A stretch of 64,000 bases of DNA, from contig NZ_CP159307.1 of assembly GCF_040448695.1 (NCBI RefSeq), positions 434,001 through 498,000 of the forward strand. Reading direction: 5' to 3'. The stretch comes from Dehalogenimonas sp. 4OHTPN (GTDB taxonomy: Bacteria > Chloroflexota > Dehalococcoidia > Dehalococcoidales > Dehalococcoidaceae). The notes under the pieces were generated by a model. That model had not been told where the DNA came from. It made no database searches and was given only the letters and a program-made list of their open reading frames with translations. Positions within the stretch are counted from its first letter, which is position 1, and every line of letters starts with the position of its first letter. Shown here piece after piece: positions 46,972 to 62,308 of this stretch. The position numbers and the translations under genes were made by a program.

Positions 46972-47173
46972 TGACCTCTCCCGTCTTTGGTAGCATTCCG
47001 GTGTAGAGTTCTGCGGTCGTTTCAGCATACTCCCTGGGTGCCCTGCCTTTCAATGAGCTATGTGGTTTGACTTCGTTATAATCCCTCCTCCATTCTTCGA
47101 TGATTTCCCTGGCATGTTTCAAACTCAGAAACCAATTCTCGTTCAGACATTCTCCCCGAACCTGCTGTTGAAG
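46972..47173 (-). mobile_element. Left part of an older IS3-family element, split by the composite transposon
   Basis: The segment begins TGACCTCTCCC, a diverged IS3-type terminal repeat. On the minus strand it encodes the transposase C-terminus (NENWFLSLKHAREIIEEW, EVKPHSSLKGRAPREYAETT). It lacks everything upstream of that and ends exactly where the composite transposon starts. The missing front part is at 58813-59708. A 1-nt deletion near the RFRGEC region shows that it was already inactive. Confidence 0.85.
47171..47173. repeat. Target-site duplication AAG (left)
   Basis: AAG directly precedes the left end (TGACC) of the composite element. The same AAG follows its right end at 58813-58815. 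Removing one copy and the 11,639-bp insert restores the transposase frame across the ...ESFN... segment. Three bp is the usual duplication of IS3-family elements. Confidence 0.8.
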
Positions 47174-48364
47174 TGACCTTCCCCCCGAAAACCGCTAAAC
47201 CCTGACTTAGAGTCCTCCGGCGTATTAAAATGCGTAAGGAGGAATCACCATGAAAGCCAAGCATTACACTGAGGAGCAGATCATCGCCGTGCTGAAAGAG
47301 GGTGAGGCCGGCGCCAAGGTCGCCGACCTTTGCCGCAAGTACGGCGTGAGTGAAGCCACCTACTACAACTGGAAGACCAAGTATGCCGGCTTAACCGTCG
47401 GCGAACTTAAGCGGCTGAAAACCCTCGAAGAAGAAAACCGGCGTCTGAAACAGATTGTAGCCGACCAGGCGCTCGATATCCGTGCCCTGACTGCTCTCAA
47501 AAAACTTCTAAAGCCCAAGGTTAAGTGTTTGGCGGTCTCTCACATCAGAGAGAGCCTTGGGCTGAGCGAGAGGAGAGCTTGCATGCTGGTCGATATTTCG
47601 TCGTCGGTCTACCGGTACCAGCCGAAGCCGGATGATGACGCGCAGTTGCGGAAACGTCTCAGGGAGCTGGCGGAGCAGCGAAAGCGTTTCGGCAGTCCCC
47701 GACTGCACATCATGCTCAAGCGGGAGGGTCTGGTGGTCAATCACAAGCGGACCGAACGAATCTACCGGGAGGAAGGTCTGGCGCTCCGGAAGAAGCGGCG
47801 GAGAAAAGGCGCGGCTGGGGCCAGGGTAGTCATGCCAACGGCACAGGGGGTAAACGAGCGCTGGTCCATGGATTTCGTCACCGACAGCATCGTCAATGGC
47901 CGCCGATTCCGTTCTCTCACCATCGTCGACGACTACTCCCGGGAGTGTCCCAGGATAGAGGTGGACACATCTCTCGGCGGCCGCCGGGTGGTCGGTGTCC
48001 TTGATCAGCTTGCCGAGATCCGCGGACTGCCGGAGATCATCACCATCGACAATGGGCCGGAATTTGCCGGTAAAGCTCTGGATGAGTGGGCTTACCGCCA
48101 CGGCGTGAAGTTGAATTTCATCCGGCTAGGAAAACCGATCGAGAATGCCTATGCAGAAAGCTTCAACGGCAGATTCAGAGATGAGTGCCTGAATACGAAT
48201 TGGTTTCTTAGCTTGAAACATGCCCGGGAAGTCATCGAAGAATGGAGGAGGGATTACAACGAGGTTAGACCGCACAGCTCATTGAAAGGATTCACCCCGA
48301 AAGAGTATGCTGAAACGACCGTGGGGCTCTAATCCAGGGTGTAGCTGCTCGTGGGGGAAGGTCA
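47174..48364 (+). mobile_element. IS3-family insertion sequence, copy 1
   Basis: 1,191 bp with terminal inverted repeats beginning TGACCTTCCCCC at both ends. It encodes one fused transposase. Copy 2 (57622-58812) has the same length and the same translations in all frames, so the two are effectively identical and recent. Confidence 0.9.
47250..48332 (+). CDS. IS3-family transposase (OrfAB in one frame), copy 1
   Basis: The 360-residue protein has an N-terminal HTH (TEEQIIAVLKEGEAGAKVAD, YGVSEATYYNWKTKY) and a leucine-zipper-like helix, as OrfA, joined without frameshift to an OrfB part. The rve integrase core has the DDE residues in SMDFVTD, TIDNGPEF and the Glu of NAYAESFNGRFRDE. ATG 47250 has AAGGAGG upstream. 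Most IS3 elements need -1 frameshifting; here the fusion is direct. Confidence 0.93.
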   Translation: MKAKHYTEEQIIAVLKEGEAGAKVADLCRKYGVSEATYYNWKTKYAGLTVGELKRLKTLEEENRRLKQIVADQALDIRALTALKKLLKPKVKCLAVSHIRESLGLSERRACMLVDISSSVYRYQPKPDDDAQLRKRLRELAEQRKRFGSPRLHIMLKREGLVVNHKRTERIYREEGLALRKKRRRKGAAGARVVMPTAQGVNERWSMDFVTDSIVNGRRFRSLTIVDDYSRECPRIEVDTSLGGRRVVGVLDQLAEIRGLPEIITIDNGPEFAGKALDEWAYRHGVKLNFIRLGKPIENAYAESFNGRFRDECLNTNWFLSLKHAREVIEEWRRDYNEVRPHSSLKGFTPKEYAETTVGL

Positions 48365-48365
48365 A

Positions 48366-48596
48366 TGGAACGAAGCGACAATCGAAGAAAGGAGACGACT
48401 GGTGAACACGCTAATCGAAATGGTTTACGTCGATTTGGAAACCAAGAAGGTCACGGCTCTGATCCCAACTCTGGCTTTCGGTGCCTTGCTCGATAGAGCA
48501 ATGGAGGTGGCGCCCGATAAGCCTTTATTTCTAACTCCCCTGAAACAGGAGAGTGTTGGAGTTGGTGGAGACGGGGGAGAGTCGAACTCTGCCTGA
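48366..48596 (+). pseudogene. 3' remnant of an ssrA-type serine recombinase
   Basis: Residues from WNEATIEERRRLVNTLIEMV to the stop resemble the extreme C-terminus of large serine recombinases (EERRRLVxxLIExV). The gene is cut at its 5' side by IS copy 1. Its last codons read into a sequence that, on the minus strand, matches the 3' end of tmRNA. In Dehalococcoides, serine recombinases of rdh islands lie in exactly this position beside ssrA. Confidence 0.65.
48563..48586 (-). other. Attachment-site-like copy of the ssrA (tmRNA) 3' end
   Basis: Read on the minus strand the sequence is TTCGACTCTCCCC followed by CGTCTCCACCA, the typical T-loop/acceptor end of tmRNA with CCA. The 5' half of a tmRNA T-stem does not pair, so this is a half-site rather than a gene. 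Such repeats mark the ends of rdh islands integrated in ssrA. Confidence 0.65.
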
Positions 48597-48683
48597 AACA
48601 ATCAGTGATATCTGTGCTTGGCTGAGAGCAAATGAGACCGAGGGGCTGGTGAAGAAAGAAGGGCGTCGCCAAAGGCCCTTTCG

Positions 48684-49409
48684 TTACTTGCGATTATCGG
48701 AGTCGGTTTGAGGCAATTCGGTGAAATTAGGTGATAGAGGGATAGTGTATCCAATGCCCCGGCGACTGATAATAATTTTAGGGTTATTGGGATCATCTTC
48801 GATTTTCTTCCGTAAGCGGCATATATAGTTTTTAATGCTTTCTGACGAACCTGGAATGAATTCACCCCAAATCATTTCTGCAAGCTCAACTTTTGTGACG
48901 ATCTTCCCCGCCCTTTTTAGCAGGTGGTAAAACAGCCTACCTTCCGTAGAGGTCAGTTCCCGCTTGATATTCCCAATGTAAACCTCATTGATGGAAGAAC
49001 CATAGTGTATATTATTACATGATATCGTTAGGTCCTCTTCAAGAAAAGAGCGTTTTTTCATTGCAGATTTTAGTCTAGCTATCAACTCCATTTGTCTAAA
49101 AGGTTTGACGAGATAGTCATCCGCATTCATCTCAAAAGCTTTAATCAGGGCTGTCTCTTCATCTCTTACTGTAATTATGATTGTCGGAATCCTTGTAAAG
49201 GCACGTATCTGTTTCAGAACCTCATATCCATCAATATCTGGGAGACCAAGATCGAGAAGAATTGCATCAGGCACGTGTTTCTCAACTAATTCAATTCCCT
49301 TTTTGCCATAAGGAGTTGAAAACAAAGCGAGATCCGGCCAAACTAAACGTAGTACTAGTGAGACCGTATCGACAATTCGCTGGTCATCCTCGATAATTAA
49401 TACTTTCAC
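48684..49409 (-). CDS. OmpR-family response regulator
   Basis: The 241-residue protein has a receiver (KVLIIEDDQRIVD, AILLDLGLPDIDG, VKPFRQMEL) and winged helix (LTSTEGRLFYHLLKRAGKIV). GTG 49409 aligns with paralogues and overlaps the kinase stop by 26 nt. The 3' flank has AAGGGC...GCCCTTT near 48660-48680, a possible terminator. It is the last gene of a leftward operon with the kinase and the corrinoid-binding-like protein. Confidence 0.88.
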   Translation of the reverse strand: MKVLIIEDDQRIVDTVSLVLRLVWPDLALFSTPYGKKGIELVEKHVPDAILLDLGLPDIDGYEVLKQIRAFTRIPTIIITVRDEETALIKAFEMNADDYLVKPFRQMELIARLKSAMKKRSFLEEDLTISCNNIHYGSSINEVYIGNIKRELTSTEGRLFYHLLKRAGKIVTKVELAEMIWGEFIPGSSESIKNYICRLRKKIEDDPNNPKIIISRRGIGYTIPLSPNFTELPQTDSDNRK

Positions 49410-51180
49410 TAACAACCTTTTGAGTATTGGGTGTAACTAAGGCTGGGAGGGTAAAATAAAATGCGCAGCCACTGCGTTGATTGTTAACTACCCACATCTT
49501 TCCTTCATGGAGCTCGACAATCTTTTTAGAAAGTGCGAGTCCTATTCCGAGACCACTGAGTTTATTTGTACCTTTATAGGGGATAAACAGGTCCTGTTGT
49601 CTTTCCTCAGGAATTCCTGGACCATCATCTTGTACCATAACGACCAACTTTTCGTTCAACATGCTGGTACTAAAGATGATGGTTGAACATTCACCAGAAT
49701 ATTTGATGGCATTATCAATCAGATTCATGAGAACCTGTTTTATTCGTTTGCTATCTGCCATCGCTACGGGAATAGTTTTATCCAGTCTTTGTAATAGGCG
49801 CTGGTTGTTATTCTTAGCCCGTAGTGCAAAGGAGTGTACTATTTCTGAAATCAAATCGTTTATACTAAAAGGCGAACACTCTATAGTCAATATACCGACT
49901 TCACCTCGAGCTAAATCCAGAAATTCATCAATTCTGCCACTTAAATCGGTGGCTCCTTTGTTGATACACTCAACTAATGGAAGCCATTGTTTCTCCCCAA
50001 TATTATTAGCAAGCGTATCGCTTGCTAATAATATTGGGGTTAAAGGGGTTTTCAATTCATGGACCAAAGCCCGAGTGAATTCTATGCGTTTGTTAATTTC
50101 ATTCTGTAACGCAGCCTTTGCTAAAGCCTCCTGTTCATATAGGTCCTTTAAATTAAGTTCAACACTCTTCCAATGTGAAATATCTTCCAGCTTTCCTTGG
50201 AAACGGTTATTAATACTACCATCATCATTATAACGTGGATATATGTGTTCTTTAATCCATATTAATTCCCCGGTTTTACGTTTTGCTTTGTATTCGATGG
50301 ATAATGGTAACTGTATACCTTTAGAGATACAATTAGCTATGAATGTGTATCTTTGCGATGTAATTTGGGTTTGAGTATCGCTATCGTAGTAATAATCAAG
50401 CTCAGGGTCACTGACAAAATATTTTACAAATTCAGAGGGCGTAAAACCCAATAGTTGGGTTACTTTTGGGCTGACAAACGTAATATATTTAGAACAAATG
50501 TTAAATTGAAATCCAACATCGCATATTTCGCCAGGTATTTGAAATTCTATTTTAGGGATTACAGTAGGTGTTTTTACCACAGAACTTTCAAGAGTTAATT
50601 TATGACGCGTATCATTGATTCCCTGCTGAACTAAAGCTTTAAAATGTGTGAGGTTACACTCAACAATTTGAGGGGGAGTTTCAAAGGCTTTTGCGAAAGA
50701 GTACACTTCAGAATCTCGTGGTTTCTCGGGCTCAAACCTACATGCTGTGATTTTATTTGTGTTACAACCTTTTACCAGGTTGAAATCTGGGTTAGAAGCC
50801 CCATAAGCAAGAAAGGTTTCGCTGCGCCATTCGTTACAAACAGCAGTTCTTAAAAGCCAACTTCCCTCATCGACATAGTCTCGGAAGGTTTCTCTCCCTA
50901 ATAGCATTTCCCAACAATTATCGCCCGGGATTTTTACAACTTGATCCTTATATTCCTCGAATATTGCAGGTAAATCCTTGTGGCAATACCCATAGGCGAC
51001 AAGTGAGATCCGATTCTCGATGGATGCTTGATCGAACACATGGCGGATTAAACTTGGGGATACTTTGAACAGACAGGCCGGTACTAATGGATATATTTTA
51101 AATCCATCGTTATTCGATATTACAGATTTGACATGCTTAAGTATGAACGAACAAGATATGATACCGATTTTATTAGGCAT
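49384..51180 (-). CDS. Histidine kinase with DUF1638-like sensor and PAS domains
   Basis: This 598-residue soluble kinase has an N-terminal 200 residues (NKIGIISCSFILKHVKSVI, LVAYGYCHKDL, WEMLLGRETFRDYVDEGSWLL) resembling DUF1638, a family found with corrinoid methyltransferases. A PAS domain follows at about 225-350, then HisKA with His near 373 (ALVHELKTPLTPILLASDTL) and an HATPase (NLIDNAIKYSG, GLGIGLALS). ATG 51180 overlaps the stop of the upstream gene (ATGCCTAA). The HisKA coding DNA contains a perfect 45-bp palindrome. A corrinoid or methylated-compound signal is inferred. Confidence 0.85.
   Translation of the reverse strand: MPNKIGIISCSFILKHVKSVISNNDGFKIYPLVPACLFKVSPSLIRHVFDQASIENRISLVAYGYCHKDLPAIFEEYKDQVVKIPGDNCWEMLLGRETFRDYVDEGSWLLRTAVCNEWRSETFLAYGASNPDFNLVKGCNTNKITACRFEPEKPRDSEVYSFAKAFETPPQIVECNLTHFKALVQQGINDTRHKLTLESSVVKTPTVIPKIEFQIPGEICDVGFQFNICSKYITFVSPKVTQLLGFTPSEFVKYFVSDPELDYYYDSDTQTQITSQRYTFIANCISKGIQLPLSIEYKAKRKTGELIWIKEHIYPRYNDDGSINNRFQGKLEDISHWKSVELNLKDLYEQEALAKAALQNEINKRIEFTRALVHELKTPLTPILLASDTLANNIGEKQWLPLVECINKGATDLSGRIDEFLDLARGEVGILTIECSPFSINDLISEIVHSFALRAKNNNQRLLQRLDKTIPVAMADSKRIKQVLMNLIDNAIKYSGECSTIIFSTSMLNEKLVVMVQDDGPGIPEERQQDLFIPYKGTNKLSGLGIGLALSKKIVELHEGKMWVVNNQRSGCAFYFTLPALVTPNTQKVVSESINYRG
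49995..50039. repeat. Perfect 21-bp inverted repeat with 3-nt loop inside the kinase gene
   Basis: The arms 49995-50015 and 50019-50039 are exact reverse complements (beginning CCCCAATATTATTAGC), separated by TAT. The sequence still encodes the conserved HisKA segment (PILLASDTLANNIG), so it is not an insertion. In RNA or single-stranded DNA it would form a very stable hairpin in the middle of an ORF. Confidence 0.95.
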
Positions 51181-51757
51181 TGACTTTAATCTCCAGTAAA
51201 TCAACTAAACTAGACAAATCTAACGGGAAAGCCACTCCCGGTAGCAAGTTTTTCATTTCCGGTTTCAAGTCAAATGCCACTCCACCAGCGTAATAAGCGG
51301 TCTCAAGAGATAATAGGTCATTTATCCTGGCACTAACCATTTCGATAAAATGAAATAGTGAAAAACTAAATATCACAGCTGATGGAGCACTTGAGGCGGT
51401 TGTCTTGATCAATAGGTCTAGGTCAGTTGGGTACGTAATATTTATCAGTCTCACATCAAACAACCTGACTTTTAAGAACACCTTACTGAGCAAAGCTCCC
51501 ATCGTGATGATTGGAGAAAAGGAACATACAAGCACCGGTTTTGCATTGCGATAAGGCTGGGTGATTTGATCTACTCTTTTATCGATTAAAGTCATTATTG
51601 AAAATAGTTGAGATGGCAACATGCTATTGCTTTGCCATGCAGATATAGCTTGATCTAACAACGATATTAACCCAACTCGTTCATATGAGTTGATCTCTTC
51701 AAGAAGGACTTGGAAACTTCTATTGTATGGACTATCAGACTGAGCGATCTCTAGCAT
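51173..51757 (-). CDS. Corrinoid-binding-like sensor protein
   Basis: The 194-residue protein has a helical first part (about 1-65), then a Rossmann-like domain (VLVCSFSPIITMGALLSKVFL, VIFSFSLFHFIEMV, YYAGGVAFDL) laid out like B12-binding domains of MerR/CarH-type regulators and corrinoid proteins. The DxHxxG cobalt-ligand motif is absent, so it may bind corrinoid base-on, or not at all. It is first in the operon with the DUF1638-like kinase and regulator, divergent from the rdh cassette. Confidence 0.6.
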   Translation of the reverse strand: MLEIAQSDSPYNRSFQVLLEEINSYERVGLISLLDQAISAWQSNSMLPSQLFSIMTLIDKRVDQITQPYRNAKPVLVCSFSPIITMGALLSKVFLKVRLFDVRLINITYPTDLDLLIKTTASSAPSAVIFSFSLFHFIEMVSARINDLLSLETAYYAGGVAFDLKPEMKNLLPGVAFPLDLSSLVDLLEIKVNA

Positions 51758-52166
51758 ACACTCATTCTACAACCTTAACGATATTAACCCAGTACCACTA
51801 TGTACCAATAAGGTAAATATCGGTTAAAAGACTATCAGATACCAAGGTTAAAGCAGTCTATAAGGACGACATCCACCCTCTGTTTATATCCAGATCAATT
51901 TGCCCCTCAAAATCTGGAACACCTTGCTAACGCTGGTAATACAATAGCACAAGGTGCCTGTGGTTACCAATACTAACCATGCTTGACTTCTTGCTTCGAA
52001 AAACATTCGTAATTCGTATGTACCATACCTCGAGTCTAATAAAGTTACAAAAACCAACTAAACAATTACCCATAAATACCATTTAGGTATCATACATAAC
52101 CGTCTCGAATACATTCACAATGTAGTATTTGGTTGTCTGGTCAATATTGTGGTGATAAAAAGGGGC
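51758..52166. promoter_or_regulatory. Divergent regulatory spacer with two TACC-N5-GGTA palindromes
   Basis: The spacer is 409 bp without a gene. TACC-AATAA-GGTA at 51803-51815 and ATACC-ATTTA-GGTAT at 52076-52090 share the same half-site and 5-nt centre. They lie near each of the two divergent transcription units (sensor operon left, rdh cassette right). They are candidate operators for the response regulator encoded at 48684. Confidence 0.5.
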
Positions 52167-52262
52167 ATGCCATTGATCGAATTCATAGTTACTTCTGCCA
52201 TTCTTATCGTATGCGCTCTAGGAGCAAAACTTATCAACAATTCTAATGCGTCAGGTGGGTAG
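52167..52262 (+). CDS. 31-aa single-pass membrane peptide
   Basis: ATG 52167 follows AAAAAGGGG. The product is one hydrophobic helix (IEFIVTSAILIVCALGAKLI) with a short polar tail (NNSNASGG). A similar peptide in the same position of the second cassette (60035) supports it being translated. No known family. It could associate with RdhA/RdhB in the membrane, which is speculation. Confidence 0.55.
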   Translation: MPLIEFIVTSAILIVCALGAKLINNSNASGG

Positions 52263-52294
52263 CGATGGTGCTGCTACTTTCCACTCTCGAGGGA

Positions 52295-52458
52295 GTCGTC
52301 ACTCGGGCAAGCCTCACGGTGGGGGAAACCAGGGCGCCGGCTGTTGCGACCAGCCTGCTTAATATGCTGTGAAACCCCTCCCGTGAGCTCCCTGGGTGTA
52401 ATCGGGGTTCACCGCGGGGCTTGCCCTCTCTTAAAGCCTTTCCTCTATAGGAGAGAAA
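52295..52458 (+). ncRNA. Structured leader RNA upstream of nrdJ-like gene, copy 1
   Basis: Several perfect helices are possible. GGGCAAGCC (52305-52313) pairs with 52418-52426 and closes the domain; CTCACGG (52313-52319) pairs with 52381-52387; CCAGGG (52329-52334) with 52390-52395; AACCCC (52373-52378) with 52404-52409. The second and third cross each other, so a pseudoknot or switching fold is implied. The end is followed by the ribosome-binding site. It may sense a corrinoid (downstream nrdJ and rdhA need B12), but the canonical cobalamin B12 box is not clear. Confidence 0.6.
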
Positions 52459-54140
52459 ATGGTCATCGACATAATTAAAGAAACCAAGCCGGCGCTTACT
52501 CCCAATGCCCTCAGGGTACTGGAGAAGCGCTACCTCCGGCGTAACCGCCGGGGCGAGCTTATCGAGACGCCGGAAGAGATGTTCCGCCGCGTCGCCCAGG
52601 CTGTGGCCGCAGCCGAGCTCATCTATGACCCATTGGCCGATACCGACATCATGGCCGGCGAGTTCTACCGGCTGATGAGTTCGCTTGAATTCCTGCCCAA
52701 CTCCCCCACCCTCCTTAACGCCGGCACCGAGGTCGGCCAGCTGTCATCCTGCTTCGTCCTGCCGGTGCCCGATTCGATTGAGGAGACCTTCGACGCGGTG
52801 AAGTACACCGCTCTCATCCATAAAAGCGGCGGCGGCATAGGCTTCGATGTCTCCAAAGTCCGGCCCAGGGGCGCCGCGGTGGGCGAGCACCTTGACGCCG
52901 CCGGCGGCCCGGTAGCGCTAATCCATGTCATCGCCGGCGCGGCTGATTACATCCGCCAGGGCGGCGTCCGACGCGGCTGCAACTCGGTGGTCATGAGCGT
53001 CACCCACCCGGACATCCTCCATTTCATCAAAGCCAAGTCCGATCCCAACGTCCTGACCAACTTCTACAACTCCGTCTCGGTCACCGATGACTTCATGACC
53101 CGGGTCAGGGATGGATCGGATTACGCCTTGATCGACCCCAACACCGGAGAGGAAACCGGCCGCCTTAACGCCCGGTCGGTATTTGCGCGTATCATTGACC
53201 AGTCCTGGCGCACCGGCGATCCCGGCCTCGTCTTCACCGACCGGGTCAACCGCGACAACCCCACCCCCTGCCTCGGCCGCATGGAGACGGTCACCGGCTG
53301 CGGCGAGCAGGCATTACTGCCCTACGAGTCCTGCAACCTCGGCTCCATCAACCTCGTCCGCATGCTGCGCCGGGACAACGGCACTCTCTCTATTGATAAC
53401 GACCGGCTGGCGCGGGTGGTTAAGACCGCCGTCAGATTCCTCGACAACGTCATCGATATCAACAAGTTCCCGGTGCCCGCTGTAGAGGCGGCCACCAGGC
53501 GCACCAGGAAGATCGGCCTCGGGGTCATGGGCTTTGCCGACATGCTCATCCGCCTGGGTATCCCCTACAACTCCACCCGGGCTATCTCCGTCGCCGAAGA
53601 GGTCATGGAGTTCATTAACGATAAAGCCCATGAGGCCTCCCGTGAACTGGCACTTGCCCGCGGCGCCTTCCCCGCCTGGGAGGGCAGCGTCTATGAAAAG
53701 CGCGGTGTCCCGATGCGCAACGCCTGCTGCACCACCATCGCCCCCACCGGCACCCTGTCGATCATCGCCGGGGTGTCATCGGGGATAGAGCCGATCTTCG
53801 CTACCGTGTTTGTGAGAAACATTCTCGACGGCGAGAATCTCCTTGAGGTCAATCCCTACTTCGAGGAAGTCGCCAGGGAGCGGGGCTTCTTCACCCCGGA
53901 GCTTATCGAGCAGCTGGTCACCTCCAACCACCTCCAGGACCGAAAAGACGTCCCGGAAGATGTCCGGAAGGTCTTCGTCACCGCCCACCGGGTGTCGCCG
54001 CAGTGGCACGTCCGCATCCAGGCCGCCTTCCAGCGCCACACCGACAACGCTGTGTCCAAGACGGTCAATTTCCCCCATGAGGTCAGGCGAGAGGATATCG
54101 CCAGGGTGTTCGAGATGGCCTGGGATTGGGGTCTGAAAGG
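52295..54140 (+). repeat. 1,846-bp direct repeat, copy 1 (leader plus most of nrdJ-like gene)
   Basis: This segment matches 60463-62308 with a constant offset of 8,168. Translations are the same in all reading frames that I could compare, which implies near-complete nucleotide identity. Identity starts abruptly at GTCGTCACTC and ends abruptly 100 bases before the stop of the gene. Confidence 0.9.
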
Positions 54141-54240
54141 AATCACAGTCTATCGGGACCAAAGTCGTCAGTCACAACCCCTACGTACTAGTAAAACAGG
54201 GGTGGAACTGGTGAAGGATCTGTTTACAGAGAAGCGGTAG
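52459..54240 (+). CDS. nrdJ: NrdJ-like (class II, B12-dependent) ribonucleotide reductase, tail-less variant, copy 1
   Basis: The 593-residue protein follows the class II RNR barrel: LSSCFVLPVPDSIEE (Cys98), GGGIGFDVSKVRPRGA, LPYESCNLGSINL and APTGTLSIIAGVSSGIEP. In class II enzymes the radical-site motif is N-P-C-G-E; here it reads TGCGE (Thr279, Cys281, Glu283), so the usual Asn is absent. The protein ends shortly after GITVYRD without the C-terminal CxxC tail that thioredoxin reduces. It may be inactive, regulatory, or a corrinoid-binding protein. AGGAGAG precedes the ATG, and DUF2795, rdhA and rdhB follow. Confidence 0.85.
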   Translation: MVIDIIKETKPALTPNALRVLEKRYLRRNRRGELIETPEEMFRRVAQAVAAAELIYDPLADTDIMAGEFYRLMSSLEFLPNSPTLLNAGTEVGQLSSCFVLPVPDSIEETFDAVKYTALIHKSGGGIGFDVSKVRPRGAAVGEHLDAAGGPVALIHVIAGAADYIRQGGVRRGCNSVVMSVTHPDILHFIKAKSDPNVLTNFYNSVSVTDDFMTRVRDGSDYALIDPNTGEETGRLNARSVFARIIDQSWRTGDPGLVFTDRVNRDNPTPCLGRMETVTGCGEQALLPYESCNLGSINLVRMLRRDNGTLSIDNDRLARVVKTAVRFLDNVIDINKFPVPAVEAATRRTRKIGLGVMGFADMLIRLGIPYNSTRAISVAEEVMEFINDKAHEASRELALARGAFPAWEGSVYEKRGVPMRNACCTTIAPTGTLSIIAGVSSGIEPIFATVFVRNILDGENLLEVNPYFEEVARERGFFTPELIEQLVTSNHLQDRKDVPEDVRKVFVTAHRVSPQWHVRIQAAFQRHTDNAVSKTVNFPHEVRREDIARVFEMAWDWGLKGITVYRDQSRQSQPLRTSKTGVELVKDLFTEKR

Positions 54241-54252
54241 GAGGAATCCGAT

Positions 54253-54513
54253 ATGACCATGATTTTAGATAAAGCACCCTTTAAGGAAAGGACATCACCA
54301 GGCTTCAGCCGTAGCTTGGACATGAGCGTTGCGGAACTGGAGCAATCCCTAAGTGGTATCGCTTTCCCGGCGACGAAGAAGGATCTAATCGTAAAGGCTA
54401 TGAGTAATGGTGCTGCGGAAGACGTTTTGACCTTTATTCATCTTTTACCAGACTTAAAATATTGCCAATTCCATGATATCACCTTCCTAGTTTGGTCATA
54501 TGTGGTCTGTTAG
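54253..54513 (+). CDS. DUF2795-like small protein
   Basis: The 86-residue protein has TAGGAGG before the ATG, 12 nt after the nrdJ-like stop. The core (LEQSLSGIAFPATKKDLIVKA then LTFIHLLPDLKYCQFHDI) matches DUF2795 (YPATKxDL...LPDxxY). Two paralogues lie in the second cassette. DUF2795 proteins are small and of unknown role, often predicted to bind nucleic acid or act as helpers. Here the constant position before rdhA suggests a dehalogenase-related task. Confidence 0.75.
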   Translation: MTMILDKAPFKERTSPGFSRSLDMSVAELEQSLSGIAFPATKKDLIVKAMSNGAAEDVLTFIHLLPDLKYCQFHDITFLVWSYVVC

Positions 54514-54627
54514 GAGTGTTTGTTGGTACGAAAGGAGGGACGAGCTACTTAACGAAAAGTTGACGCCCAGAAAGAGACCGGGAATTCACAATAGAGACCG
54601 AAAAAATTGTATTGAAAGGGATTAGTT

Positions 54628-56076
54628 ATGCTCATCAAAAACAAACTGAATGAAAAGGAGAGAGGCTACAGTCGGAGAGAATTCTTGAAGGTTGCGGGTG
54701 GGGCGGGTATCGGTGGAGCTTCATTAGCCGCCGTAGCTGCGATTAAAGAACTGCCCGGTGCTAATCAAGATATGCTCTATAATAGCCGTCTTAAAGAACC
54801 CTATTTGCCCCAGTATCCAAGCGAATACCCTTGGTGGGTGAAAGAGATAGATGACACCGCGAATTCGTTGGGCACGACAGAAATCGTACCGGGTGAACTT
54901 GTTTTGGGATCAACAAAAATTAACGGCCAATACCAAGCCTTTACCGATGGGCGACAAGACGGTTTTCAGGCTGTAGGTAACGCCGCTACGAATCAAGACT
55001 GGTCGGGGGAATGGGGTAAAATCGCACAAGAGGCAGTTACCGCTCGCAATGAATGGATCGCCAATATGACACCGGAAGAATTGCATGATTACCGTTTTGG
55101 GACAGCGATAGTCCAGGCTTCGGATCATTGGCATGTAAACACTGCAGAAAAGAACTGGATTAAACTCCCGGTTAACGCGGCGAAGGTTGAAGTTTCTGCC
55201 GAAGAGATGACTGCGAAATTAAAAGGTGTGGCCCATTGGTTTGGCGTAGATCAAATTCGTGTTTGTGCAATTGACGACAAAATGAAACCATTCTTTTACA
55301 AAATTGCAGCAACCTCAGGCACGTTACGTGGTTACCGTCCCAAAGGATGGGTTGATCCTGGCAGACCAGTGGCCTGGCCCTATCCCTATAAATACGCTAT
55401 CTCCATGGGAATTTTTACAAGTTTACCGACTCATCGAGCTGGGGTGGGCCCCCTCGCCAATGCTTCAACAGCAACAACTTGCAGTGATCAAGATCTTTTT
55501 TCCAAATACATGGAATCCACGATCCGAGGCTTGGGTTACGAAGCTTATGGAATGATTATTGCAGATGAGGATTGCTGCGAAACCCCATTGGCTATTAGAG
55601 CGGGATTGGCTGAAGCTGGGCGGTCCGGTCTTGCTATTGCGCCTTGGGGTGCTGGATTACGTACGATAATCGTAGCAACAAACGCTCCCCTGGTCCCCGA
55701 CAAACCGATAGATTTTGGTTTGCAAGAATTCTGCAAAGTATGTGGTCGATGCTCGGACAATTGCTTAGCACAAGTCATTGGGAAGGATCCAGAACCATCT
55801 TTAATTAACGGTGCCTATAAGTGGGAATACGATGGGTTGCTATGCATGAAGCAAAGAACAGCATTTGGCTGTCAATTTTGCGTCAGTGTATGTCCGTGGA
55901 GTGCGCCAGACACTCCTGCTCATGATTTTGGTCGTGTTTTAGCCAGTATACCGATGTTTGCACCAATGATGGTCAAGGTGGCGGATATTACTTACGGTAA
56001 GTATCCTAGAGGTGAAGATGCCTCTAAATGGCAACCTTGGCATACACCTGCGGAATGGGCACCCTGGCGGACTTAG
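54628..56076 (+). CDS. rdhA: Reductive dehalogenase catalytic subunit inside the transposon
   Basis: The 482-residue protein is a Tat-exported corrinoid/Fe-S dehalogenase. The twin-Arg motif RREFLK is at residues 16-21, followed by GGAGIGGASLAAVAA. The first cluster motif near 368 is CKVCGRCSDNCL (final Cys not followed by the usual Pro), and the second near 415 is CQFCVSVCPW. It is more divergent from the other two rdhA genes in this window than they are from each other. rdhB follows 28 nt later. AAAGGGA precedes the ATG. Confidence 0.93.
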   Translation: MLIKNKLNEKERGYSRREFLKVAGGAGIGGASLAAVAAIKELPGANQDMLYNSRLKEPYLPQYPSEYPWWVKEIDDTANSLGTTEIVPGELVLGSTKINGQYQAFTDGRQDGFQAVGNAATNQDWSGEWGKIAQEAVTARNEWIANMTPEELHDYRFGTAIVQASDHWHVNTAEKNWIKLPVNAAKVEVSAEEMTAKLKGVAHWFGVDQIRVCAIDDKMKPFFYKIAATSGTLRGYRPKGWVDPGRPVAWPYPYKYAISMGIFTSLPTHRAGVGPLANASTATTCSDQDLFSKYMESTIRGLGYEAYGMIIADEDCCETPLAIRAGLAEAGRSGLAIAPWGAGLRTIIVATNAPLVPDKPIDFGLQEFCKVCGRCSDNCLAQVIGKDPEPSLINGAYKWEYDGLLCMKQRTAFGCQFCVSVCPWSAPDTPAHDFGRVLASIPMFAPMMVKVADITYGKYPRGEDASKWQPWHTPAEWAPWRT

Positions 56077-56104
56077 TTAAACTAAAAATTGAAAGGAAAT
56101 TTAT

Positions 56105-56374
56105 ATGAGCCTGTTAGTATTCTTAGGAGGAATCGTACTCACCGTTCTGGTAGGTTTAATCATGATGGCAAATAAACAATTCCGAATACTTTGGTGGCAT
56201 TACATTCTTGTTGCAGGAGTCGCAGTTTGGACTGCAATCGGAGTTGTGATTACGTTTGACTTGGCAATTGAAAGAGCGCAGGGGGCGTGGCTTGTCGCTC
56301 TTATTTTTGGATTAGTGGCACTCATAGTCGCAATCCCGACGGTGCGTTCGGTGTTACATAGTAAAAAAGTGTAA
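56105..56374 (+). CDS. rdhB: Reductive dehalogenase membrane anchor
   Basis: The 89-residue protein has three transmembrane helices (LVFLGGIVLTVLVGLIMM, WWHYILVAGVAVWTAIGVVI, WLVALIFGLVALIVAIPTV), the usual RdhB size and topology. It would hold RdhA at the outer face of the cytoplasmic membrane. It is the only rdhB in the window. A strong terminator follows the stop. Confidence 0.9.
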   Translation: MSLLVFLGGIVLTVLVGLIMMANKQFRILWWHYILVAGVAVWTAIGVVITFDLAIERAQGAWLVALIFGLVALIVAIPTVRSVLHSKKV

Positions 56375-56386
56375 ACTTCATCTAGG

Positions 56387-56427
56387 ATAAAGGCTCCTTT
56401 GTGATTGTGTCACAGGGGAGCCTTTAT
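56387..56427. terminator. Bidirectional terminator after rdhB
   Basis: ATAAAGGCTCC (56387-56397) pairs with GGAGCCTTTAT (56417-56427), an 11-bp perfect stem with T-rich tails on both strands. It lies between convergent rdhB and the transporter gene. Confidence 0.85.
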
Positions 56428-56430
56428 CTA

Positions 56431-57363
56431 TTATCGAAAACTAGTGTCGCTTCTAATATTCTTATGAAAACGTATCGAAAGAAATAAATAATAAAGAAAA
56501 CCGATGACTAAAGCAGTTATCGCAGGCACGGAGGCTTTTGGTCCCAACAGTACGTAAGCGATGGCACTTGCTCCTGCCCATTTTTTCATTGAACCAAGAA
56601 GCATATAACTGATAGACGTTGGCGGTGGAATATTTAATAACCTACTTATACGATAAATCGATTCCCCAAGAACAAATATTGTGGCAAAAGCAACGATAGT
56701 TGCAACTAAAAGGTTGTTTGAGTATGTAGTGAGTAATTCACGATTTAATCCTATTAGGGTAAAACACACGATAGCAACGCACCAATTTATAATATGGCCG
56801 TTATATGGTTGTATAAGTATAGATTGTTTTAATTTTCTGATAATGCGGGACAATATCAGCGGTAAAATAATGATTTGGAATATTACATTGAATAGATCTG
56901 CTCCCCAATAGATACTACTAAGAAAAACATATACCAATAACGGCAAGATCAAGATGGATAAAAAATAACATGCAATGGTACTTAAAAATGAAAAGGATAC
57001 ATCGCCCTTGATATTATACGTACAAGGTGCGATTAAAAGTGATGGGGGAGCTCCAGCTAAAATGACTAAACCAGCAATTATATACTTGTCATCCGTTAAT
57101 AGGTAACCCAGTACAATATTCAGGCCACCTAAAAGAATAAAATTGAGCAAAAAACCCACAGTGGTCGCCTTGAGTATTTTTTTTGGTAGTAACAGGTCTC
57201 TAGTAAGATCGATATGACTTAAAGACAAAGACATGGCAATGATGAGTAAAGAGATGATCCAACTTTCGGTGCGTTGAGCTAGCGGCGCCATATAGAAGCC
57301 AGCGAATATGGCGAAAATGAGTATAAAATTATGCTGGTGAATTAGTATTTTTAAAATAGACAT
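56431..57363 (-). CDS. Bile acid:sodium symporter-like (BASS) membrane transporter
   Basis: The 310-residue protein has about nine to ten transmembrane helices. The segment GLVILAGAPPSLLIAPCTYN followed by GDVSFSFLSTIACY resembles the conserved GxxLxxxxPP...GD...S region of the BASS superfamily. It shares the AT-rich composition of the transposon cargo. No partner gene is evident; it may carry an organic anion related to dehalogenation, which is inference. Confidence 0.65.
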   Translation of the reverse strand: MSILKILIHQHNFILIFAIFAGFYMAPLAQRTESWIISLLIIAMSLSLSHIDLTRDLLLPKKILKATTVGFLLNFILLGGLNIVLGYLLTDDKYIIAGLVILAGAPPSLLIAPCTYNIKGDVSFSFLSTIACYFLSILILPLLVYVFLSSIYWGADLFNVIFQIIILPLILSRIIRKLKQSILIQPYNGHIINWCVAIVCFTLIGLNRELLTTYSNNLLVATIVAFATIFVLGESIYRISRLLNIPPPTSISYMLLGSMKKWAGASAIAYVLLGPKASVPAITALVIGFLYYLFLSIRFHKNIRSDTSFR

Positions 57364-57446
57364 GAGTGTTATGATTCAAGATTGTAGCTAGAGCGAGTGT
57401 GCACTTGCAATGAGTATGAACTACTTGAACTAATAATACCAATTGT

Positions 57447-57621
57447 TACGAATATTCACGGCTGTGGCACTTCCCCAGATGGTCTTCTGCACTTAACCAC
57501 ATACAAATACTTGTCTCCACCCAGGTCATAACATCCAGTCATAAAATTGATCGCCTGATGATGGGCGGTGTCAATGTCAGCATCCGTTTTGACAGCCCAA
57601 CCCTGATATGGCTTGCCAGGG
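57447..57621 (-). pseudogene. Truncated ORF cut by IS copy 2
   Basis: An open frame of 57 codons runs from the IS boundary to TAA at 57447-57449, reading GKPYQGWAVKTDADIDTAHH and ending HSREYS. Composition is protein-like. It appears to be the 3' end of a gene whose front was lost when the IS arrived. Family not recognised. Confidence 0.4.
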
Positions 57622-58812
57622 TGACCTTCCCCCACGAGCAGCTACACCCTGGATTAGAGCCCCACGGTCGTTTCAGCATACTCTTTCGGGGTGAATCCTT
57701 TCAATGAGCTGTGCGGTCTAACCTCGTTGTAATCCCTCCTCCATTCTTCGATGACTTCCCGGGCATGTTTCAAGCTAAGAAACCAATTCGTATTCAGGCA
57801 CTCATCTCTGAATCTGCCGTTGAAGCTTTCTGCATAGGCATTCTCGATCGGTTTTCCTAGCCGGATGAAATTCAACTTCACGCCGTGGCGGTAAGCCCAC
57901 TCATCCAGAGCTTTACCGGCAAATTCCGGCCCATTGTCGATGGTGATGATCTCCGGCAGTCCGCGGATCTCGGCAAGCTGATCAAGGACACCGACCACCC
58001 GGCGGCCGCCGAGAGATGTGTCCACCTCTATCCTGGGACACTCCCGGGAGTAGTCGTCGACGATGGTGAGAGAACGGAATCGGCGGCCATTGACGATGCT
58101 GTCGGTGACGAAATCCATGGACCAGCGCTCGTTTACCCCCTGTGCCGTTGGCATGACTACCCTGGCCCCAGCCGCGCCTTTTCTCCGCCGCTTCTTCCGG
58201 AGCGCCAGACCTTCCTCCCGGTAGATTCGTTCGGTCCGCTTGTGATTGACCACCAGACCCTCCCGCTTGAGCATGATGTGCAGTCGGGGACTGCCGAAAC
58301 GCTTTCGCTGCTCCGCCAGCTCCCTGAGACGTTTCCGCAACTGCGCGTCATCATCCGGCTTCGGCTGGTACCGGTAGACCGACGACGAAATATCGACCAG
58401 CATGCAAGCTCTCCTCTCGCTCAGCCCAAGGCTCTCTCTGATGTGAGAGACCGCCAAACACTTAACCTTGGGCTTTAGAAGTTTTTTGAGAGCAGTCAGG
58501 GCACGGATATCGAGCGCCTGGTCGGCTACAATCTGTTTCAGACGCCGGTTTTCTTCTTCGAGGGTTTTCAGCCGCTTAAGTTCGCCGACGGTTAAGCCGG
58601 CATACTTGGTCTTCCAGTTGTAGTAGGTGGCTTCACTCACGCCGTACTTGCGGCAAAGGTCGGCGACCTTGGCGCCGGCCTCACCCTCTTTCAGCACGGC
58701 GATGATCTGCTCCTCAGTGTAATGCTTGGCTTTCATGGTGATTCCTCCTTACGCATTTTAATACGCCGGAGGACTCTAAGTCAGGGTTTAGCGGTTTTCG
58801 GGGGGAAGGTCA
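57622..58812 (-). mobile_element. IS3-family insertion sequence, copy 2 (inverted)
   Basis: 1,191 bp with the same ends as copy 1 (TGACCTTCCCCC), in opposite orientation. Its outer end abuts AAG and the right part of the older IS3 element. Its inner end cuts the ORF at 57447. Confidence 0.9.
57654..58736 (-). CDS. IS3-family transposase (OrfAB in one frame), copy 2
   Basis: The 360-residue protein is residue-for-residue the same as copy 1 (HTH plus rve DDE core). Two intact transposases in the same unit mean the composite could still be mobile. Confidence 0.93.
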   Translation of the reverse strand: MKAKHYTEEQIIAVLKEGEAGAKVADLCRKYGVSEATYYNWKTKYAGLTVGELKRLKTLEEENRRLKQIVADQALDIRALTALKKLLKPKVKCLAVSHIRESLGLSERRACMLVDISSSVYRYQPKPDDDAQLRKRLRELAEQRKRFGSPRLHIMLKREGLVVNHKRTERIYREEGLALRKKRRRKGAAGARVVMPTAQGVNERWSMDFVTDSIVNGRRFRSLTIVDDYSRECPRIEVDTSLGGRRVVGVLDQLAEIRGLPEIITIDNGPEFAGKALDEWAYRHGVKLNFIRLGKPIENAYAESFNGRFRDECLNTNWFLSLKHAREVIEEWRRDYNEVRPHSSLKGFTPKEYAETTVGL

Positions 58813-59634
58813 AAGCTCTCGACGGGGGCGTTCTCAACCGGCTTGCCCGGCCGGATGAAGTTCAGCTTCACGCCGCGACGATAAGCCCACTCATCCAAGG
58901 CCCGGCCGGCGAATTCCGGCCCGTTGTCAATGGTGATGACCTCAGGCAACCCGCGAATATCGGCCAGCCTGTCCAGCACGCCGACCACTCTTTGGCCACC
59001 AAGGGAGGTATCCACCTCGATCGCCGGACATTCCCTGGAATAGTCATCGACAATAGCCAGGGCGCGAAACCGCCGCCCTGTAATGATGCTGTCGGTTATG
59101 AAGTCCATGCTCCATCTTTGATTCGGCCGTTCGGGCGTCTCCAGGATTATTCGATTAGCGGCCGTGCCTTTACGCCGCCGTTTTCGCCTGAGTGACAATC
59201 CCTCTTCTCTATAAAGCCTTTCGGTCCGCTTGTGATTCACCACCAGACCTTCTCTCTTAAGCAGGATATGAAGCCGCGGGCTGCCGAACCGTTTTCTTTG
59301 GCAAGCCAATTCTCTAAGACGCTGGCGCAGGACCTCATTGTCGTCCTCGTTGGGCTTGTAACGATAGGCCGATGGTGAAATTCCGGCCGGTTCGCGGACC
59401 TTCAGGGTCATATTGTCCAACGCTTGGTCGGCGAAGATCGCGTCGGCATTCCTCTTCGAGGGTTTTGAGCCTCTTGAGCTCACTGATAGACAATCCGGCG
59501 TACTTGGCCTTCCACTTGTAGTAGGTGGTGTCACTCATCCCATATTTGCCGCAGAGATCGGCGGTTTTAGCGCCGGCTTCGTCCTCTTTGAGCACCGTGA
59601 TGATCTGTTCTTCGGTGAACCTCTTGCGGACCAT
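58813..59634 (-). pseudogene. Disrupted IS3 transposase (5' and central part)
   Basis: The frame from ATG 59634 encodes the HTH (FTEEQIITVLKEDEAGAKTA, YGMSDTTYYKWKAKYAGLS). It suffers a frameshift and an internal deletion near 59430-59450, then continues in another frame with the rve core (SMDFITDSIITGRRF, TIDNGPEFAGRALDEW) up to ENAPVESF. Dead both from its own mutations and from the insertion. Confidence 0.85.
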
Positions 59635-59708
59635 GAGCCTTCCTTAATCATTCCTATTTTACCGGAGGACTCTACTTCATGTTGATACTAATTACGGAGG
59701 GAGGGTCA
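58813..59708 (-). mobile_element. Right part of the older IS3-family element
   Basis: The segment ends at 59708 with GGAGGGAGGGTCA, a terminal repeat related to that at 46972. It contains the N-terminal and central parts of a transposase related to the intact copies (about 1.1 kb when joined to 46972-47173). The break falls inside the codons for ESFN, precisely at the composite transposon boundary. Confidence 0.85.
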
Positions 59709-60462: not shown

Positions 60463-60626
60463 GTCGTCACTCGGGCAAGCCTCACGGTGGGGGAAACCAG
60501 GGCGCCGGCTGTTGCGACCAGCCTGCTTAATATGCTGTGAAACCCCTCCCGTGAGCTCCCTGGGTGTAATCGGGGTTCACCGCGGGGCTTGCCCTCTCTT
60601 AAAGCCTTTCCTCTATAGGAGAGAAA
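60463..60626 (+). ncRNA. Structured leader RNA upstream of nrdJ-like gene, copy 2
   Basis: The sequence matches the leader at 52295-52458, with all helices at an offset of 8,168. Preservation of the complete fold in both copies suggests it is part of the functional cassette, although recent duplication alone could explain it. Confidence 0.6.
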
Positions 60627-62308
60627 ATGGTCATCGACATAATTAAAGAAACCAAGCCGGCGCTTACTCCCAATGCCCTCAGGGTACTGGAGAAGCGCTA
60701 CCTCCGGCGTAACCGCCGGGGCGAGCTTATCGAGACGCCGGAAGAGATGTTCCGCCGCGTCGCCCAGGCTGTGGCCGCAGCCGAGCTCATCTATGACCCA
60801 TTGGCCGATACCGACATCATGGCCGGCGAGTTCTACCGGCTGATGAGTTCGCTTGAATTCCTGCCCAACTCCCCCACCCTCCTTAACGCCGGCACCGAGG
60901 TCGGCCAGCTGTCATCCTGCTTCGTCCTGCCGGTGCCCGATTCGATTGAGGAGACCTTCGACGCGGTGAAGTACACCGCTCTCATCCATAAAAGCGGCGG
61001 CGGCATAGGCTTCGATGTCTCCAAAGTCCGGCCCAGGGGCGCCGCGGTGGGCGAGCACCTTGACGCCGCCGGCGGCCCGGTAGCGCTAATCCATGTCATC
61101 GCCGGCGCGGCTGATTACATCCGCCAGGGCGGCGTCCGACGCGGCTGCAACTCGGTGGTCATGAGCGTCACCCACCCGGACATCCTCCATTTCATCAAAG
61201 CCAAGTCCGATCCCAACGTCCTGACCAACTTCTACAACTCCGTCTCGGTCACCGATGACTTCATGACCCGGGTCAGGGATGGATCGGATTACGCCTTGAT
61301 CGACCCCAACACCGGAGAGGAAACCGGCCGCCTTAACGCCCGGTCGGTATTTGCGCGTATCATTGACCAGTCCTGGCGCACCGGCGATCCCGGCCTCGTC
61401 TTCACCGACCGGGTCAACCGCGACAACCCCACCCCCTGCCTCGGCCGCATGGAGACGGTCACCGGCTGCGGCGAGCAGGCATTACTGCCCTACGAGTCCT
61501 GCAACCTCGGCTCCATCAACCTCGTCCGCATGCTGCGCCGGGACAACGGCACTCTCTCTATTGATAACGACCGGCTGGCGCGGGTGGTTAAGACCGCCGT
61601 CAGATTCCTCGACAACGTCATCGATATCAACAAGTTCCCGGTGCCCGCTGTAGAGGCGGCCACCAGGCGCACCAGGAAGATCGGCCTCGGGGTCATGGGC
61701 TTTGCCGACATGCTCATCCGCCTGGGTATCCCCTACAACTCCACCCGGGCTATCTCCGTCGCCGAAGAGGTCATGGAGTTCATTAACGATAAAGCCCATG
61801 AGGCCTCCCGTGAACTGGCACTTGCCCGCGGCGCCTTCCCCGCCTGGGAGGGCAGCGTCTATGAAAAGCGCGGTGTCCCGATGCGCAACGCCTGCTGCAC
61901 CACCATCGCCCCCACCGGCACCCTGTCGATCATCGCCGGGGTGTCATCGGGGATAGAGCCGATCTTCGCTACCGTGTTTGTGAGAAACATTCTCGACGGC
62001 GAGAATCTCCTTGAGGTCAATCCCTACTTCGAGGAAGTCGCCAGGGAGCGGGGCTTCTTCACCCCGGAGCTTATCGAGCAGCTGGTCACCTCCAACCACC
62101 TCCAGGACCGAAAAGACGTCCCGGAAGATGTCCGGAAGGTCTTCGTCACCGCCCACCGGGTGTCGCCGCAGTGGCACGTCCGCATCCAGGCCGCCTTCCA
62201 GCGCCACACCGACAACGCTGTGTCCAAGACGGTCAATTTCCCCCATGAGGTCAGGCGAGAGGATATCGCCAGGGTGTTCGAGATGGCCTGGGATTGGGGT
62301 CTGAAAGG
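60463..62308 (+). repeat. 1,846-bp direct repeat, copy 2
   Basis: Matches 52295-54140. After 62308 the two nrdJ-like 3' ends diverge at many third positions (encoding ...RSRNSQPLCTSETG versus ...QSRQSQPLRTSKTG). An older duplication thus seems to have been homogenised up to this point. Confidence 0.9.

Follow-up and report, generated by a model that had tools for sequence, protein, structure and literature searches.

How a block of DNA bearing the hallmarks of an ssrA-integrating island came to lie between two insertion sequences, far from ssrA, is the question raised by a locus of Dehalogenimonas sp. 4OHTPN, whose 1.75-Mb genome is a single contig. The stretch of DNA analysed, here called the window, is 64,000 nt long (G000:C1:434001-498000); its features are collected in Table 1. 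An earlier note on the same DNA had proposed a history in which an ssrA island was captured by two insertion sequence (IS) copies and then transposed to the present locus.

Table 1. Features of the block, its attachment site and its flanks (window coordinates)
Feature	Position	Strand	Basis
Older degraded IS3-family element (resident IS), 3' part	46972..47173	-	IS similarity; end-like motif TGACCTCTCCCG at 46972
AAG, left copy of 3-bp target repeat	47171..47173	.	outer flank of IS copy 1
IS copy 1, IS3 family, 1191 bp, ends TGACCTTCCCCC	47174..48364	+	100% identical to copy 2
DsiB-type serine recombinase gene 3' end, truncated by IS copy 1, left att arm	48365..48562	+	profile and BLAST; homologues end at tmRNA 3' ends
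ssrA 3'-end attachment repeat	48563..48589	-	exact 27-bp match to own ssrA
ssrA-island right-end arm	48588..48654	-	matches four arms in own ssrA array
Response regulator	48684..49415	-	ORF list; family by sequence and synteny with NSZ-14 island
Sensor histidine kinase	49384..51204	-	ORF list; synteny with NSZ-14 island
Conserved 194-aa protein	51173..51757	-	no Pfam/NCBIfam match; syntenic ORF in NSZ-14 island
B12-dependent ribonucleotide reductase	52459..54240	+	NCBIfam NrdJ
Reductive dehalogenase rdhA, 482 aa	54628..56076	+	TIGR02486 132 bits, below cut-off 160
Small membrane protein 3' of rdhA, possible rdhB	56105..56374	+	position and hydrophobic sequence only; no family match
Bile-acid:sodium-symporter-like transporter	56431..57363	-	Pfam SBF_like; same place in NSZ-14 island
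IS copy 2, identical, inverted	57622..58812	-	comparison with copy 1
AAG, right copy of target repeat	58813..58815	.	outer flank of IS copy 2
Resident IS3-family element, 5' part, frameshifted transposase	58816..59708	-	alignment across joined flanks

The attachment repeat and its two arms

Regarding the attachment site, the earlier note had staked its reading beforehand on a match between this sequence and the 3' end of the genome's own ssrA. The tmRNA gene was located at G000:1405105-1405457 with Rfam RF00023 and ARAGORN, and the minus strand of window positions 48589-48563, GAGTTCGACTCTCCCCCGTCTCCACCA, is the same as its 3' end (G000:1405431-1405457) at 27 of 27 bp; about 1e-11 exact matches of this length are expected by chance in the window. 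The repeat (genome position 482563) is 923 kb away from ssrA (1405457), and not within the 100 kb downstream of it; no second ssrA repeat was found in the window on the other side of the block, leaving a single att copy.

The two sides of the repeat differ. On the low-coordinate side, coding sequence for the C-terminus of a recombinase is present; on the other, the sequence is not the ssrA body and carries the TTCAG motif reported upstream of the repeats of Dehalococcoides ssrA islands (PMC3146451). This right-end arm has counterparts in the genome's own ssrA array, with 88% identity over 92 bp at 1442221-1442312 and 93% over 75 bp at 1414547-1414621, and further matches at 1431649-1431723 and 1439838-1439899. 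Since an integrase arm and a right-end arm meet at one repeat, the junction is of the kind found in an excised circle or between tandem islands. The remnant of an ssrA island that the earlier note had seen is borne out by the att repeat, the arm, the DsiB end and the island cargo, but the site is two-armed and not the end of one island. The arms may come from two different islands, in which case the site would not be assignable to a single one.

The array beside ssrA extends over 70 kb, with exact or near copies of the repeat at 1475693-1475717 and 1442288-1442312, and has the tandem-island layout described in Dehalococcoides (PMC3146451); among its genes are a DsiA-like resolvase and a complete DsiB-type recombinase with a frame of 576 aa (DsiA/DsiB at G000:1405390-1407881), other module-like genes and numerous rdhA. 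Within it, the stretches G000:1422983-1427587 and 1467000-1471604 agree in their ORFs and in the ORF lengths (598, 321 and 507 aa), which suggests a duplicated multi-gene block.

In four other Dehalogenimonas genomes, too, repeats of the ssrA end with right-end-like arms occur far away from ssrA (loci L066-L070). The relatives compared were strains NSZ-14 (G003), IP3-3 (G007), GP (G004), W (G001), BL-DC-9 (G002) and WBC-2 (G005), and the sites are G007:1043110 (already published for IP3-3, PMC4918011), G004:267731 and 332832, G001:769990, and G002:1139403. In strain W, the hairpin sequence usually found downstream of ssrA is located 3' of the distant repeat, and not of ssrA.

The recombinase fragment

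The ORF at 48345-48596 runs through the ssrA repeat and stops at 48596, in agreement with the earlier description of a C-terminal recombinase fragment reading into an ssrA-type att sequence; its 3' end has the placement looked for in a DsiB gene, overlapping or abutting the repeat in convergent orientation. About 70 codons, the last of the gene, are kept, the recombinase having been cut by IS copy 1 exactly at the inner border of that copy: the IS ends at 48364 and the fragment starts at 48365, one base from the start proposed before, 48366.

As for its family, the fragment scores 54.9 bits against a profile of DsiB C-termini, whereas 2000 shuffles reach 5.1 at most; when the two closest homologues then known were left out of the profile, it scored 26.2 bits versus 7.5 for shuffles. 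Pfam and NCBIfam scans of the short fragment found no domain. With no more than the last ~70 codons of the gene left, the Resolvase and Recombinase domains are absent from it; they are present in the intact homologues, so that the family assignment rests on the latter. Judged by its sequence, the fragment is a remnant of a DsiB-type gene and not a working member.

The best homologues come from other orders of Dehalococcoidia, with 55% identity in genome G069 and 51% in a Chloroflexi MAG, and a search of genome contigs for further homologues gave two loci; no closer copy exists among 60 relatives. At eight of eleven class-level loci the homologue ends, convergently, at the 3' end of a tmRNA called by ARAGORN; at one it ends at a tmRNA-like 3' end without such a call, and at the other two the repeat has another arm, as at an island junction. 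In the tree of C-termini, a split with support 1.0 sets the group of the fragment apart from the DsiB proteins found in Dehalogenimonas and its order; the alignment is short and the inner branching consequently not reliable. By these comparisons the recombinase falls in a DsiB clade other than those with intact members in the Dehalogenimonas genomes compared, which is a new point: the ssrA recombinase of the earlier note is indeed DsiB-type, but neither this genome nor those relatives now carry its type at ssrA. Neither a donor site nor the N-terminal remainder of this integrase is left in the genome, where a search for the remainder gave no more than other recombinases with 28-37% identity; the donor and the order of events are therefore a matter of reconstruction.

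Two further recombinase loci were observed. On a Chloroflexi MAG contig (L020, 2175-6524) a DsiB homologue is followed by three ssrA-like repeats (3666, 5009 and 6504) with one gene at a time between them, for an LLM-like oxidoreductase and for an MFS-like transporter (both named by sequence only), in a cassette-like array; the viral contigs searched with this L020 recombinase contained no relative of it. In the window, the minus strand of 16678-17583 matches another large serine recombinase (543-aa open frame).

Insertion sequences and cargo

The borders of the block can be read directly. The two IS copies, full-length, 100% identical and inverted, each hold a transposase ORF of 360 aa (47250-48332 in copy 1, with 303 bits to the NCBIfam IS3 transposase, cut-off 160), and they are the only full copies of this IS in the genome. 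Together with the cargo they make up a block of 11.6 kb, IS(+)-cargo-IS(-), at 47174-58812. The inner IS flanks, ATG and GGG, do not match, and no target repeat frames either IS by itself; the outer flanks share a 3-bp repeat, which by itself has a chance of 1 in 64. These outer flanks are the halves of one older element, of which 47014-47173 has 82.8% identity to the IS 3' end; when they are joined and one AAG is removed, the IS alignment is gap-free at the junction and the transposase continuous, so that the empty site is recovered. No target repeat was found for this resident IS, flanked by TAA and ATA. The outer repeat with the gap-free empty site bears the sequence signature of one composite transposition.

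The cargo is homologous to ssrA-island DNA. Its rdh cassette comprises the transporter, the small membrane protein, rdhA, the ribonucleotide reductase, the sensor kinase and the response regulator. Positions 48644-57376 are collinear with 8.6 kb in NSZ-14 (G003:1392176-1400750) and IP3-3 (G007:1619984-1628558), at 81-86% nucleotide identity, and these stretches sit inside the published dcpA ssrA islands of the two strains (PMC13390414), located between ssrA and repeats of the ssrA end (in NSZ-14 at 1384296 and 1407195). The cassette has the same orientation relative to att in all three genomes, but the right att is 6.4 kb from it in the NSZ-14 island versus about 100 bp in the window, where the cassette is at the island end, and the donor island would therefore have been a different version. 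Other genes of the integration module of ssrA islands were not found in 48365-57621, which holds only the dsiB 3' end.

The window rdhA is 90% identical to the genes of the NSZ-14 and IP3-3 islands, and it is probably, by sequence, the orthologue of DEALK_17120; in the IP3-3 gene table this locus tag is the rdhA orthologue, and dcpA is DEALK_17200 (PMC4918011). That the window gene is dcpA itself was ruled out, given this correspondence and the lack of a match at 1e-60 in BL-DC-9, which carries dcpA. A plasmid search with rdhA returned distant matches only, none covering 80%. The sensor kinase gene contains a near-perfect 45-bp palindrome (49995-50039).

A peculiarity of the cassette is its ribonucleotide reductase, which has only about 74% identity to that of NSZ-14, compared with about 86% for the rest of the cassette. 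Positions 52295-54140, inside the block, and 60463-62308, outside it, are identical over 1846 bp (0 mismatches) and diverge abruptly beyond. This identity is a new point; one copy was likely converted by the other after the insertion, and an earlier conversion between other reductase copies is the alternative.

History of the locus and its meaning

The reading favoured here, with a probability of about 0.87, is that 47174-58812 is a composite transposon in which two inverted IS3-family copies surround ssrA-island DNA and which moved to its present locus. The history of the earlier note is thereby upheld, each step with independent evidence. An island origin is indicated because the att repeat, the right-end arm, the DsiB C-terminus and a cargo homologous to the ssrA islands of two relatives occur together; capture, because the two identical IS copies are inverted and one of them cuts the recombinase; and transposition, because a 3-bp outer repeat frames a gap-free empty site in an older IS. 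In this history, an ancestor or donor would have had the cassette at the right end of an island that either belonged to a tandem array at ssrA or had been excised as a circle. One IS copy would have inserted past the attachment site, within the integrase gene, and the other on the far side of the transporter gene; the sequence of island and IS steps is itself part of the reconstruction. The outer IS ends would then have moved jointly with everything between them, presumably by the IS transposase, to a place 923 kb from ssrA, entering the older IS that adjoins a two-component regulator gene and giving rise to the 3-bp target repeat.

Within this composite-transposon reading, capture from an excised circle and not from a tandem array is rather unlikely: an att with an integrase-side and a right-end arm has the structure of attP, but the tandem arrays in this genome would yield the same junction, and islands in the excised state are considered non-replicating (PMC3146451), which makes an IS hop onto a circle less likely.

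Two other histories would do without composite transposition. An ssrA-type island could have integrated here through a secondary attachment site, the two IS copies inserting beside it later and independently, and the ssrA-like repeats far from ssrA in other Dehalogenimonas, including the published IP3-3 case (PMC4918011), agree with such an event. It is nevertheless very improbable, as the window has one att, with the integrase arm on one side and the island arm on the other, and not two att bounding an island, while the block is bordered by the IS ends, the two halves of a single older IS flank it, and each IS copy lacks a target repeat of its own. Scarcely probable at all is a chromosomal rearrangement, by inversion or homologous recombination between IS or reductase copies. 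Long identical repeats do exist (the IS pair, and the 1846 bp of reductase inside and outside the block), and gene order is poorly conserved within the genus (PMC13390414), but recombination between the IS copies would not place the two outer ends precisely within a single older IS and leave a 3-bp repeat there, and the reductase repeat is direct and spans IS copy 2, so that an exchange there would delete and not insert.

The composite transposon combines traits of known systems. With vcr-GI and the related ssrA islands of Dehalococcoides (PMC3146451) it shares the ssrA 3'-end repeat, a DsiB gene overlapping the repeat, a right-end motif starting with TTCAG and rdh cargo, and with their tandem arrays beside ssrA the layout found in this genome; it differs in being far from ssrA within a composite transposon, in that the six-gene module starting with dsiB at attL is reduced to the last ~70 dsiB codons, and in the clade of its DsiB. 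The collinear cassette is common to the dcpA islands of NSZ-14 and IP3-3 (PMC13390414), whereas the window is without dcpA. Tn-Dha1, the composite transposon of pceABCT in Desulfitobacterium (PMC8905343), likewise consists of an rdh operon made mobile as one unit by a pair of insertion sequences; the IS here is of the IS3 family, however, the operon is different, and the cargo holds an ssrA-island att and an integrase end.

In conclusion, two known routes of dehalogenase gene spread, site-specific ssrA islands and IS-made transposons, meet here in a new combination, at one locus with readable junctions, and the locus illustrates how rdh cassettes can exit the ssrA hot spot. It also records a past clade of ssrA integrase, none of which is intact in the Dehalogenimonas genomes compared, and offers a concrete possible source for ssrA repeats distant from ssrA. 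Because both att arms are kept, the captured site may have stayed recognisable to an ssrA integrase, although this is distinctly unlikely; if it were so, the transposon would have two means of moving or rearranging, anywhere by the IS transposase and by site-specific recombination with ssrA, and such travelling att sites could contribute to the scattered ssrA repeats of several Dehalogenimonas genomes and to their unstable gene order.
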